64,000 nt of DNA from Isoptericola sp. AK164 (lineage in GTDB: Bacteria; Actinomycetota; Actinomycetes; Actinomycetales; Cellulomonadaceae), in NCBI RefSeq assembly GCF_029643425.1, contig NZ_CP119106.1, positions 1,798,001-1,862,000 on the forward strand, read 5' to 3'. The notes beneath the pieces are model-generated. The model was not told the DNA's origin. It searched no databases and saw only the letters and a list, made by a program, of their open reading frames with translations. Both the position numbers and the translations under genes were made by a program. Positions 1 to 29,392 of this stretch are shown piece by piece (positions within the stretch are counted from its first letter, which is position 1; every line of letters starts with the position of its first letter).

Positions 1-216
1 GGCGTTGGAGCAGCCGGCCCGTTCGCGCACGGTGCTGACCGTGACGGGCTCGTCGTCGGCGAGCAGGGCGTCGGCCGCGGCGAACACGCGGTCGCGCGCG
101 GTGACCGGTGGCGGGGGAGCGGCCGGCCCGGAGGCCTCCGGCGACGGCGGGTCGGCGGAGTATCGCGCGGCCTCGGGCTCGACGTCCGGATCCCGCGGAG
201 TAGTCTGCGTCATCAT
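1..216 (-). CDS. KfrA-like DNA-binding protein, N-terminal part (cut by window edge)
   Basis: Seventy-two codons are visible and the frame runs off the left edge. After a Pro/Ala-rich leader of about 35 residues comes VTARDRVFAAADALLAD followed by VTVSTVRERAGCSNA. This is the pattern of the KfrA N-terminal DNA-binding domain, in which a short helix-turn-helix precedes a long coiled coil; the coiled coil would lie outside the window. KfrA proteins are autoregulated plasmid or island DNA-binding proteins. ATG at 216 is preferred because AGGAGG lies 11 bases upstream; a second ATG follows directly at 213. The start codon sits inside a perfect inverted repeat, as expected for autorepression. The gene is downstream of, and codirectional with, the integrase. 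Family call is by motif only. Confidence 0.62.
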   Translation of the reverse strand, partial: MMTQTTPRDPDVEPEAARYSADPPSPEASGPAAPPPPVTARDRVFAAADALLADDEPVTVSTVRERAGCSNA

Positions 217-227
217 GCCAGACTACT
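199..227. promoter_or_regulatory. Inverted repeat over the KfrA-like start codon (probable operator)
   Basis: AGTAGTCTG (199-207) and CAGACTACT (219-227) are perfect 9-bp arms around an 11-bp spacer that contains the start codon. Another GAGTAGT lies just upstream of the Shine-Dalgarno on the coding strand. Binding here would block translation start and transcription, so autoregulation is the simple reading. An 8-of-9 half-site match (AGACTACT) recurs at 1784-1791, seven bases before the integrase start. Confidence 0.55.
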
Positions 228-252
228 CCTCCTACTACTCTTAAGACACCGA

Positions 253-275
253 CACCCGCTTTTCCAAAGCGGGTG
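253..275 (-). terminator. Hairpin downstream of the integrase gene
   Basis: CACCCGCTTT (253-262) pairs perfectly with AAAGCGGGTG (266-275) around a 3-base loop. It lies between the end of the integrase gene and the start of the KfrA-like gene, both leftward. There is no U-tract, so it is a candidate terminator of the actinobacterial type. A role in the recombination site next to the integrase is also possible. Confidence 0.45.
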
Positions 276-319: not shown

Positions 320-1777
320 TCAGCGCGCCACGCGGGCGGTCAGATCGACCAGGCCAAAAGGTGCTTCTGCACCGTCAGTGAGCACATCGTGAGCGGTGTC
401 TGCCGGGTCGTGCGCCGCGAACTGCTCGGACATCGACTCGCCGAGGCGGTCGAGGTCGTCCTCGAACAGACCGGCGTAGGTACGCAGCGTCAGCACGGGG
501 GACTCGTGGCCGAGCATGCGCTGGACGGCCTTGACGCTCGCGCCGCTGGCGATGGCCAGGGAGGCCGCCGTGTGCCGCAGGTCGTGCAGGGTCAGCGGGG
601 CGAAGTCCTCGGCGCCGGCGCGCAGGGTCACCCGGGCCACGACGTCGAGGCGACGGGTGCGCGCGATCTTCTCGCCACGGGTCATCCCGTCGCGACGGGT
701 GCGGTCGGCCGCGACCAGCACCGCCCAGGTCGCGGGGTCCACGACCCCGGTGACCGGCAGCTCGTGCTCGGCCTGGACCCGGCGCACTGCGGTCAGGGCC
801 GTCGTGTCGTAGAACCCGGTCGCGGTCAGCCCGAGCAGCTCCTGCAGCGTGCTCACCGCAGCGCCGGCGGCGCGCACGGCCGGACGGAAGGCGTGCCGGT
901 CGAAGGACTCGCGGCGCAGCGGGCCGCCGTCGCGCGCCGTGAACAGCAGCGCGGTGCCCGGGCGGCCGCCGAGCCGGTCGGCCAGCTCGGGCTCCAGCAC
1001 GCGAGGGACCGGCACCTCCCGGCGCGCGTGGGTCTTGGTGTTGCCGAGCAGCAGGGTGCCGTCGTCCAGGCGGGTGTAGGCGCGCTCGACCATGACACGA
1101 CGGCGCAGCAGGTCCACGTCCCCGGTGCGCAGCGCCGAGACCTCGCCCCAGCGCAGCCCGGTCAGCCCGGCCAGCAGCACCAGCGGGCGCGCCTGGGCGG
1201 ACGTGGTCGCGTCGGCCACCCGGCGCAGCTGCTCGTGGGACAGGTACCGGTGCGGCTTGGTCTTGGGCGCGCGCGGCAGCGACGGCACCCGGCCGGACGG
1301 GGTGCGCGCCGGGTTCGACGTCAGCCGGCGGGCGTCCACCGCCGCGTCCAGCAGCGCCACCAGCAACCGCACCGCGTCACGGCGCCGGGCGGAGGAGGCC
1401 GGCTCGGTGCGTCCGGGGCCGCGCATCTCGACCGCCCAGCGGGCGACGTCGTCGTGCGTCACCCGGCGCAGCGGCTCCTCGCCGAAGGTGGGGGCGACCA
1501 GGGAGCGGAACCGTTCGCGCTCGGACTCCAGGGTGCGGGGGGCGCGGTCCGCGCGGGCGGCCTGCCACGCGGAGAACCACTCGGCCACGGTGAGCATGCC
1601 GGACCTCGGGTCGACCCAGTCGCCGCGCTTGCCTGCCTCCTCGGCCCGGCGTGCCTCGGCCAGCGCGTCGCGCCGGGCCCGGAACGCCCGGGTGCTGCGC
1701 AGGCGGCCGTCGATCCGGAAGCGCCCCACGTACGACGTCGTGCCGCCGGTTCCGGTGCGCTTCTCCGTGTAGGCCAT
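320..1777 (-). CDS. Tyrosine recombinase/integrase with an inserted peptidoglycan-binding-like domain
   Basis: 485 residues. The N-terminal part has an Arm-type start (MAYTEKRTGTGG) and a core-binding domain (about 60-160). The catalytic domain shows R209 in LTGLRWGE, a likely lysine near 248 (NTKTH), H398 and R401 in LHDLRHTAAS, H424 in MLGHES and Y434 in TLRTYAGL, so all key residues are present. Between FRPAVRAAG (about 305) and LHDLRH there are roughly 90 extra residues. Of these, 308-354 read as a PG_binding_1 unit: STLQELLGL, TGFYDTTALTAVRRVQ, LPVTGVVDPATWAVL. Phage or island integrases do not normally carry this domain. The frame is open throughout, so it is not an annotation artefact of a frameshift. 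It probably mobilises a nearby island with the KfrA-like gene; no attachment site could be identified. Confidence 0.9.
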   Translation of the reverse strand: MAYTEKRTGTGGTTSYVGRFRIDGRLRSTRAFRARRDALAEARRAEEAGKRGDWVDPRSGMLTVAEWFSAWQAARADRAPRTLESERERFRSLVAPTFGEEPLRRVTHDDVARWAVEMRGPGRTEPASSARRRDAVRLLVALLDAAVDARRLTSNPARTPSGRVPSLPRAPKTKPHRYLSHEQLRRVADATTSAQARPLVLLAGLTGLRWGEVSALRTGDVDLLRRRVMVERAYTRLDDGTLLLGNTKTHARREVPVPRVLEPELADRLGGRPGTALLFTARDGGPLRRESFDRHAFRPAVRAAGAAVSTLQELLGLTATGFYDTTALTAVRRVQAEHELPVTGVVDPATWAVLVAADRTRRDGMTRGEKIARTRRLDVVARVTLRAGAEDFAPLTLHDLRHTAASLAIASGASVKAVQRMLGHESPVLTLRTYAGLFEDDLDRLGESMSEQFAAHDPADTAHDVLTDGAEAPFGLVDLTARVAR

Positions 1778-22723: not shown

Positions 22724-22737
22724 ATAATGTACATTAT
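22724..22737. promoter_or_regulatory. Perfect AT-rich palindrome ATAATGTACATTAT
   Basis: Fourteen bases are perfectly symmetric and almost all A/T, which is very rare in this GC-rich sequence. It ends 97 bases before the start of the acetyltransferase gene. It resembles the size of Zur-, MarR- or GntR-type operators but does not match a site I can name. Confidence 0.5.
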
Positions 22738-22834
22738 GTCATTTTGCGGGATGAGGACCCCTGCTCGAGCGCCTGCTCCACGTCCCCCGGGTCGACCCCT
22801 GGTCGCCGGGGTCACCGCTCACTACAGTCGAACC

Positions 22835-24824: not shown

Positions 24825-25931
24825 ATGGTCGCACCGCCCCGCCCCGAACGGGTCTCCGTCGTCGACGCCGCCGAGCGCTACCTCGCCGCGGTCCGTGTCG
24901 AGACCGTCCGGGGCGTGCTCTCCGCCGCCACCGAACGCTCCTACCGTCGCGACGTGCGCGAGCTCGTCGACCTGCTCGGGCCGGACCGGGTGCTCGACGA
25001 CGTCACCGGCGACGACGTCGACGCCGCGCTCGTGCGCTACCAGGCCGGACCCGACGGCCGCTTCACCGACCCCGCCCGCAAGACCGGCCCCGGCCGCTCC
25101 ACGGCCACCGTGAACCGGTTCCGCCAGTCGGTGACCCGCTTCTTCTCCCACGCCGCCCGCCACGCCTGGGTCCAGGCCGACCCGATGCAGTGGGCCGCTC
25201 CCCCGGCCAAGGTCCGCGAACGCGTCCGGGTCCAGCGCACCGCCCTGTCGGCCTCGGCCGCCCAGGCCCTGCTCGGCACCGTCCAGCAGGAGGCCACCGA
25301 CCCCACGCAACGCACCCGCCACGACCAGGCGCTCGCGGCCCGCGACCGCCTCGTGGTCGCGCTGCTGATGGTCCTCGGCCCCCGCGTCTCGGAGCTCGTG
25401 CGCGCCGACGTCGCCGACTTCCGCCGCGAGCCGGACCAGACGTCTTGGCGGATCCTCGGCAAGGGCGGCGGCACGCGGACCGTCGCCCTGACGGCACCCC
25501 TGGCCGGGGCGCTGGAGACCTACCTGTCCACGCTGCGGCCACGGCTGGCCGAGCGCCGTCCCGACGACGCGGACGCCCAGGACGCGCTGCTGCTGTCCTG
25601 GCGGGGCCGCCGCCTGGACACCCAGGCGGTGCGGTCGCTGCTCGCCCGGGCGGTGGCCCGGATGCCCGAGCCGTACCGTCGCCCCACGACGCCGCACGCG
25701 CTGCGGCACACCACCGCGACGCTGCTGGTCGCCGACGGGTGGGACGTCAAGGTCGTCGCCGAGCTGCTCGGGCACTCCTCGATCGCGACCACCGACGTCT
25801 ACCTCGACCGCATCGACGGCGAGCTGGCCGCCGCGCTGCGCACCCACCCCCTGGCACGCTCCTTGGAGGACGCCCCGCGGGTGGACCTGTCCGATTCGCC
25901 GGGCAGATCCTCCGAGTCGTCGCTACGGTGA
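24825..25931 (+). CDS. XerC-like tyrosine recombinase
   Basis: 368 residues from ATG at 24825 with AAAGAGG upstream. The N-terminal SAM-like core-binding domain spans about 10-130. The catalytic set is R in LGPRVSELVRAD, K in ILGKGGGTRTV, H and R in PHALRHTTATLL, H in ELLGHSSIATT and Y in DVYLDRI, all present. It looks like a chromosomal XerC/D-type enzyme or an orphan integrase. No phage or transposon gene is adjacent. Because the housekeeping xerC/xerD contexts are absent here, its target is unknown. The phospholipase-like gene starts four bases after its stop. Confidence 0.9.
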   Translation: MVAPPRPERVSVVDAAERYLAAVRVETVRGVLSAATERSYRRDVRELVDLLGPDRVLDDVTGDDVDAALVRYQAGPDGRFTDPARKTGPGRSTATVNRFRQSVTRFFSHAARHAWVQADPMQWAAPPAKVRERVRVQRTALSASAAQALLGTVQQEATDPTQRTRHDQALAARDRLVVALLMVLGPRVSELVRADVADFRREPDQTSWRILGKGGGTRTVALTAPLAGALETYLSTLRPRLAERRPDDADAQDALLLSWRGRRLDTQAVRSLLARAVARMPEPYRRPTTPHALRHTTATLLVADGWDVKVVAELLGHSSIATTDVYLDRIDGELAAALRTHPLARSLEDAPRVDLSDSPGRSSESSLR

Positions 25932-28648: not shown

Positions 28649-29392
28649 TCAGTCCGTGCCCTGGGTGCCCTGGCGGACCCAGGTGGTGTGCAGGCGGGCC
28701 AGCAGCTCGCCGAGCTCGGCGGCCAGGTCGGCGGCGGCCTCGGCACCGTTGCCGCGCTGCTGGCTGCGGTACGGGGCCACGGCCTGGTCGACGAGCGCGA
28801 CGTGGCGGTCGGCCGAGGAGCGCAGCGGGCGCAGGTGGCGCGGCTCGATGCCGTGCTCGGTCAGGCGCTGCACGATGCGGACCACCTCGGCGGCCGAGCC
28901 GTCCAGGGCCCCGTCCGGGGTGGTGTGCAGCACGCCGGCGGTGACCAGGGACCGCACCAGCTCGGCGCTGGTGCCGGTCGTCTCGGCGACCGACTCCACG
29001 GTCCAGCGCCGCCGCGACTCCCCCGGCGCCCCGGCGGGGACGGCCAGGCGCGGCGAGGGTGCGGGCGCGGGCTCGCCGGCGTCCATGGCGGCGAGACGTT
29101 CCTTGATGACCTTCAGCGGCAGGTAGGAGTCGCGCTGCTCGGCCAGGACGAACCGCAGCCGCTCGACGTCGGCGGGGCTGTACTGCCGGTACCCGGCCGG
29201 GGTGCGCACCGGCGTGATGAGCCCCTGGTCCTCCAGGAAGCGCAGCTTGGAGTGCGACACGTGCGGGAAGTCTCCGCGCAGGTGGTTCAGCACGTCGGAG
29301 ATGCGCATGCCGGCGTGCCGCGAGATGCCCCGCGGCCACGGCTCGGGCGCGTCGGGCTCCGGAGCCGAGGCAGCCCCGGAACCGGCTGTCAC
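28649..29392 (-). CDS. ftsR: MerR-family regulator FtsR
   Basis: 247 residues from GTG at 29392, overlapping the FHA gene stop as GTGA. The MerR domain is MRISDVLNHLRGDFPHVSHSKLRFLEDQGLITPVRTPAGYRQYSPADVERLRFVLAEQRDSYLPLKVIKERL, and a second, winged-helix-like part follows (about 125-245). It matches FtsR of Corynebacterium and Rv1828, which activates ftsZ and affects cell division. Position after the FHA gene and before the nuclease gene is conserved across actinobacteria. Confidence 0.92.
   Translation of the reverse strand: MTAGSGAASAPEPDAPEPWPRGISRHAGMRISDVLNHLRGDFPHVSHSKLRFLEDQGLITPVRTPAGYRQYSPADVERLRFVLAEQRDSYLPLKVIKERLAAMDAGEPAPAPSPRLAVPAGAPGESRRRWTVESVAETTGTSAELVRSLVTAGVLHTTPDGALDGSAAEVVRIVQRLTEHGIEPRHLRPLRSSADRHVALVDQAVAPYRSQQRGNGAEAAADLAAELGELLARLHTTWVRQGTQGTD

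Follow-up and report, generated by a model that had tools for sequence, protein, structure and literature searches.

A tyrosine integrase was found whose catalytic domain contains, in the loop that precedes box II, a domain with the PG-binding fold. The gene lies in the window, which is the whole stretch of 64,000 nucleotides from Isoptericola sp. AK164 that was analysed, and its domain layout varies that of a known enzyme in a new way. In Isoptericola, Promicromonospora, Myceligenerans and Antribacter, we found a conserved neighbourhood of the integrase that includes an att-like palindrome and a KfrA-like gene and is terminal where this was measurable. This chromosomal setting, with the terminus, a matching site and a DNA-binding protein, suggested that the cell has adopted the integrase. 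The features are collected in Table 1.

Table 1. Features of the integrase region and the terminus in the window
Feature	Position	Strand	Basis or remarks
Tyrosine integrase, arm-binding-like, core-binding and catalytic domains	320..1777	-	485 aa ORF
Insert within catalytic domain, residues 304-395	593..868	-	PG-binding fold, extra helix 367-380, conserved segment ending GAEDF
PG_binding_1-like three-helix unit, residues 306-360	698..862	-	Pfam and superposition
KfrA-like gene start (DNA-binding, coiled coil), runs off the window; G000:C1:1797188-1798087	1..87	-	Gene call, Pfam KfrA_N
GTAGTAG/GGAGTAGT-type repeats upstream of KfrA-like gene	197..240	-	Sequence; similar repeats upstream in relatives
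Palindrome ACCCGCTTTTCCAAAGCGGGT, candidate recombination or binding site	254..274	.	Arms invariant, tRNA-Arg(CCT) anticodon-stem likeness
dif-like site ATAATGTACATTATGTCAT	22724..22742	+	1 mismatch to the pattern taken to be that of dif; 0 in 100 shuffles
XerC/XerD-like tyrosine recombinase, 2 kb from dif-like site	24825..25931	+	NCBIfam XerC 136 bits, cut-off 335

The insert in the catalytic domain

Judged from its sequence, the gene product is a tyrosine recombinase of the phage/ICE type whose active site is intact. Phage_integrase was matched by the ORF in Pfam (2.2e-19), and the catalytic and core-binding folds of a tyrosine recombinase (PF00589) were present, together with the R-K-H-R-H/W-Y active site of that family. 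The earlier note had listed the catalytic residues as present. All six (R209, K248, H398, R401, H424 and Y434) were found, and they were invariant in 27/27 aligned proteins, the window protein and 26 homologues. This full-length alignment consisted of 27 proteins, with L018 and L062, which were cut by contig ends or gaps, left out. The N-terminus formed a beta-sheet domain of the arm type in the AlphaFold model, and no signal peptide or export signal was seen there by eye. Box II, patch III and arm-binding are names used for such enzymes.

The interval between FRPAVRAAG (ending at residue 305) and LHDLRH (starting at 397) was 91 residues long in the window integrase, which agreed with the insertion of about 90 residues claimed earlier. 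The same interval was 5 residues in L063 and 8 residues in L019, two relatives without the insert. A profile search gave a Pfam match of the insert to PG_binding_1 (PF01471) with 37.7 bits (2.3e-9; cut-off 23), spanning residues 316-353, which corresponded to positions 20-57 of the 57 in the profile. Scores above the cut-off were also obtained for L186, L187 and L189, and no match was listed for L190. When folded alone with AlphaFold, the insert gave a separate globule with a mean pLDDT of 94.1. It showed the three-helix PG-binding fold of PF01471, and VIA-align superposed the model on the solved PG-binding domains 6tci, 9h68, 3bkh and 5nm7 with an rmsd of 1.4-1.5 Å over 54-60 residues. Because a plain Foldseek search with the insert model gave no match at E<=0.001, the fold match rests on the profile matches and the VIA-align superposition. 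The position of the insert was identical in all 26 aligned homologues (51-92% identity to the window protein), and the insert is therefore not due to chance. Thus, a genuine PG_binding_1 domain was confirmed where the earlier note had placed it, at the junction of the two catalytic-core halves. Neither of the outcomes named there as speaking against it, a profile search without a match and an unrelated loop in the homologues, occurred. Among the literature matches listed, in which subscription journals are poorly covered, there was no paper on a PG-binding domain inside an integrase, and the word peptidoglycan had no occurrence in the main text of PMC8138268.

Substitution rates were compared in nine species pairs (NG86). 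Omega was 0.09-0.26 over the whole integrase; the PG-fold part gave 0.12-0.70, and residues 394-445 gave 0-0.15. In the case of Myceligenerans and Promicromonospora, the linkers flanking the PG-fold domain were free to expand. This pattern of omega and linkers indicated a fold that is kept and a surface that is changing fast.

Distribution of the insert and mobile relatives

An insert-bearing integrase was present in 29 of the 200 genomes of the family, with the window's own counted. Named close relatives were Isoptericola, Promicromonospora, Antribacter and Myceligenerans. The insertion point was shared by distant integrases from two further families within the order (G366; G358, G460 and G549), and a degenerate insert was found at the same place in G477. 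Ten residues were invariant in 14 aligned proteins, G477 excluded: A304, A307, V308, V331, Q335, G344, L385, G388, D391 and F392. With the insert and the catalytic tail as the query, at least 10 of 347 genomes at the order level matched across the insert, in addition to the degenerate G477. The same query matched at least 2 of 325 genomes in the class-level sample, namely the window's genome and one congener. Both counts are lower bounds, with about ten candidates scored per genome. A phage origin of the insert was also considered, and none of 80 viral loci (kept of 350) had an ORF matching the insert profile; this search covered the 80 loci, and 323 phage and 7 plasmid records stood outside that count.

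Two further observations were made at or near this insertion point. In the case of L188 (G477), the motifs at both ends of the insert were kept, the middle was different, and an 18 bp repeat read by eye like a tRNA anticodon arm. Six genomes of one other family (G677, G632, G695, G599, G738 and G722) had integrases whose open frames were about 600 residues long and in which the profile match ended at 313-337, near the same point. These six integrases possibly carry a different large insertion.

A tree was built with FastTree after removal of the insert columns and was rooted at the midpoint. The insert-bearing integrases did not form one clade. L186 (G366) grouped among insert-less integrases, and its split from the other insert-bearing proteins had a support of 0.98-0.99. 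The placing of the insert-less L191, and of L217, L245 and L252 among the rest, was weakly supported (0.38-0.43). The module may have passed from one integrase to another, or may have been lost many times.

Three relatives with an insert-bearing integrase were located in delimited elements. The element of G046 was about 5.0 kb long with exact 49 bp direct repeats of tRNA-Arg(CCT), that of G366 was 8.7 kb with exact 45 bp direct repeats of tRNA-Ser(CGA), and that of G549 was 7.6 kb with exact 50 bp direct repeats overlapping tRNA-Met. A small excisionase-like HTH_17 gene was found in G366 (39.6 bits; cut-off 27 bits) and in G046 (22.7 bits, below that cut-off). In G093, the tRNA-Arg(CCT) gene adjoined the insert-bearing integrase, and a 43 bp stretch on another contig was a 91% match to the 3' part of the G046 tRNA. 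L187 and L190 showed no delimiting repeat within the stretch examined. By eye, the integrase of L187:3332-4123 (G358) adjoined the 3' end of a uppS-like gene, next to which no att repeat was found within the stretch examined. Because three relatives lie in repeat-bounded elements of 5-9 kb, the insert is compatible with mobility.

The KfrA-like gene, the palindrome and the terminus

The integrase gene was followed directly downstream by the palindrome and the KfrA-like gene. The KfrA-like neighbour combined the KfrA_N profile (PF11740; 1.5e-7, 32.5 bits, cut-off 26.1) with a coiled-coil character, seen as matches such as SMC that were far below their cut-offs. The gene was present in 27 of the 29 insert-bearing genomes and was absent from the two tRNA-Arg forms, G046 and G093. 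It was matched in one of the remaining 171 family genomes (G092, weakly, 2e-9); these counts are lower bounds, with about ten candidates scored per genome. The gap between the integrase and the KfrA-like gene was about 0.2 to 21 kb in 26 genomes, and in G133 the two lay on different contigs. In Promicromonospora, other genes part the integrase from the KfrA-like gene, and both are still kept. Ten of 18 sampled congener genomes had neither gene. In these ten, the scoring covered nearly all KfrA-like candidates and gave no match at 1e-8. Since they do without it, the cassette is dispensable.

The arms of the palindrome, ACCCGC...GCGGGT, did not vary in the 27 genomes with the non-tRNA form (27/27), and the middle varied. 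It was upstream of the KfrA-like gene in 27/27, even with the integrase kilobases off. The distance to that gene was 130-250 bp in 25 of the 27 and 0.4-0.6 kb in G110 and G116. The palindrome was then compared with the tRNA-Arg(CCT) of G046. The best 21-base match was 20/21 in Antribacter and 17-18 in four other loci tested, and the best of 30 shuffles per locus was 16-17. In the case of the window, it was 17/21 against a best shuffle of 16, which is a thin margin. In the window's own genome the tRNA-Arg(CCT) stem was altered and the palindrome was not. From this likeness and this change of the stem, the palindrome looks like an ancestral att core of the integrase, kept without the tRNA. It could also be a KfrA operator or a hairpin. 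The anticodon stem of tRNA-Arg(CCT) was altered, away from the palindrome form, in L078 (G000), L079 (G084) and L077 (G103).

With up to one mismatch, the palindrome was a single copy in 200 kb of each of four genomes and, for the window's genome, in 73 kb. The site region as a whole had no further full copy in the window's own genome. An RNA terminator was considered and rejected. The arms were invariant in 27/27 genomes with no compensatory change, and a protein site therefore fits the palindrome better. A hairpin telomere made by a protelomerase was also rejected, as G000 is a single contig that is opened at dnaA and runs through the site, with a dif-like site nearby. The GTAGTAG/GGAGTAGT-type repeats are probably the promoter or operator of the KfrA-like gene.

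Relative to dnaA, the integrase was at 50.3% in G000, 50.1% in G110, 47.5% in G116, 49.4% in G117 and 53.2% in G014, which are the five single-contig carriers. It was thus opposite dnaA and 9.5-22.4 kb from a dif-like site in 5/5, and in each the palindromic site was at the terminus near the recombinase gene. The site in the window was identified with what we take to be the dif pattern, and a counterpart was present in the four other single-contig carriers. The terminus was placed by the dnaA position and the dif-like site because GC skew was too weak to place it. The features at 22724-22742 and 24825-25931 place the window at the replication terminus. ARAGORN also called a tRNA with an incomplete anticodon at 28925-29012, which is probably false.

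The neighbourhood itself was terminal in G141, which has no cassette: galE was at 51% with the dif-like site 16.6 kb on. For this reason, the terminal position of the cassette is not independent evidence. The cassette-free locus was read in G141 and G103, two of the ten carrier-less congeners. The hydrolase and GNAT genes on either side of the cassette in the window's genome adjoined each other in G103; in G141, the hydrolase gene was missing too. Neither locus showed an integrase, a KfrA-like gene or the palindrome (<=2 mismatches, 35 kb), and the stretch of 35 kb read in G103 gave no dif-like site. By eye, the neighbours of the window integrase were ordinary chromosomal genes. The integrase distance was correlated with the distance of galE (r 0.79, 24 loci), of the KfrA-like gene (r 0.81, 20 loci) and of clusters 3, 6, 11 and 18 (r 0.63-0.90). 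It followed six of the seven neighbour families tested, with cluster 8 as the exception (r 0.13, p 0.12).

Possible roles and relation to known systems

We propose that the integrase is a domesticated recombinase that acts at the palindrome. The KfrA-like protein would be its partner, and the insert would be a docking module that does not bind peptidoglycan. We hold this with about even confidence. An element integrase would have been fixed in the ancestor of the group together with its core site and its DNA-binding partner. It would still bind the palindrome, and would probably cut or recombine it. The KfrA-like protein would be an architectural or regulatory partner. The insert would be a reused helical docking module that touches the neighbouring protomer or the partner protein, and this contact would control the assembly of the recombination complex. 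In a bolder form, the actinobacterial terminus would have a second system of site-specific recombination that has not been described before. It would consist of an adopted tRNA-targeting integrase with a PG-binding-fold docking domain, the KfrA-like coiled-coil protein and the ancestral att core, kept close to dif as a unique palindrome, and would resolve, tether or segregate sister termini. We regard this bolder form as rather improbable. Against the domesticated recombinase in general, a dif-like site and an Xer-like gene are present in the window in any case, so that there is no obvious need for it. The cassette does not stand in for XerCD/dif as the sole system, because a canonical dif-like site was present in 5/5 single-contig carriers and an Xer-like gene in the window.

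In another reading, the insert binds peptidoglycan or lipid-linked precursors and ties recombination to the envelope; a tie of integration to the envelope had been suggested in the earlier note. The insert does belong to the PG_binding_1 family and fold. However, it is flanked on both sides by a DNA-binding enzyme whose modelled N-terminus is of the arm type, and its relatives sit in small mobile elements. The passages on the AP3 endolysin give Arg6/Asp31/Asp54 as a putative peptidoglycan fingerprint, and the integrase family did not show it. The family alignment had Asp in 0/26 rows at the Asp31 equivalent and in 2/26 rows at the Asp54 equivalent; Arg6 falls outside the alignment, the loop alignment of four distant rows is uncertain, and the fingerprint itself is putative. 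Since these putative recognition positions, present in the AP3 endolysin, were mostly lost, peptidoglycan binding by the insert appears unlikely, and the envelope link found no support and is barely credible. Our best guess for the insert is a new protein- or DNA-contact module, which the same note had also proposed.

The cassette of integrase, att site and KfrA-like gene might still be mobile, with a preferred site near dif. Its absence from G103 and G141 and the delimited elements of the three relatives are in line with this. However, the single palindrome leaves no flanking duplicate, no excisionase-like gene was seen by eye among the predicted neighbours, the integrase distances track those of most neighbours, and Promicromonospora keeps both genes across the intervening ones. 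We consider a cassette that is still mobile unlikely. It was also considered whether the palindrome serves as an operator, either for the integrase or for the KfrA-like protein, with the recombinase mainly a DNA-binding regulator. The palindrome lies close upstream of the KfrA-like gene in most genomes and goes with that gene, not with the integrase, when the two are apart, and recombinase-fold repressors exist (SroF entries). We doubt this use, because the catalytic residues are invariant and the catalytic tail is nearly frozen, the palindrome is similar to the stem of the tRNA that lies next to the outgroup integrases, and the separate GTAGTAG repeat block is by eye the better operator candidate. 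A decaying remnant of an old element would fit the lack, by eye, of an excisionase or transfer gene nearby. It is very improbable, as no insert-bearing match listed had an internal stop, omega was low and the active site was invariant.

If the domesticated recombinase carries such a docking module, a wall-binding fold reused inside such an enzyme would add a new means of regulating tyrosine recombinases. Several distant integrases carry the insert at one and the same place, which makes its role open to tests by deletion or swapping. The cassette near dif, with the ancestral site still readable, would be a natural case of an integrase going from a mobile element to a chromosome function, and it is the part most deserving of experiment.

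Compared with the arm-binding tyrosine recombinases lambda Int and Tn916/Tn1549 Int, the window integrase adds the PG-binding-fold insert before box II. Integron integrases also have an extra domain within the catalytic domain; the passages of PMC9668308 and PMC8138268 place it around patch III and describe it as needed for activity. As described, this additional domain differs from the window insert in having about 36 residues and an ALER motif (PMC9229058). The PG_binding_1 domains of SleB, SleC, phiKZ gp144 and the AP3 endolysin superposed on the insert at 1.4-1.5 Å, and the insert profile matched such domains, AP3 best (2e-8). However, those domains belong to wall-acting enzymes, and the insert sits in a DNA recombinase. 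In the single-recombinase modules XerS/difSL and XerH/difH, as described in the passages of PMC2731167, the gene is linked to its own site and the site is at the terminus. The window recombinase gene is likewise near a palindromic candidate site at the terminus. Unlike these modules, it appears to encode a phage-type integrase with an arm-like domain, and it stands beside a canonical dif-like site and an Xer-like gene.
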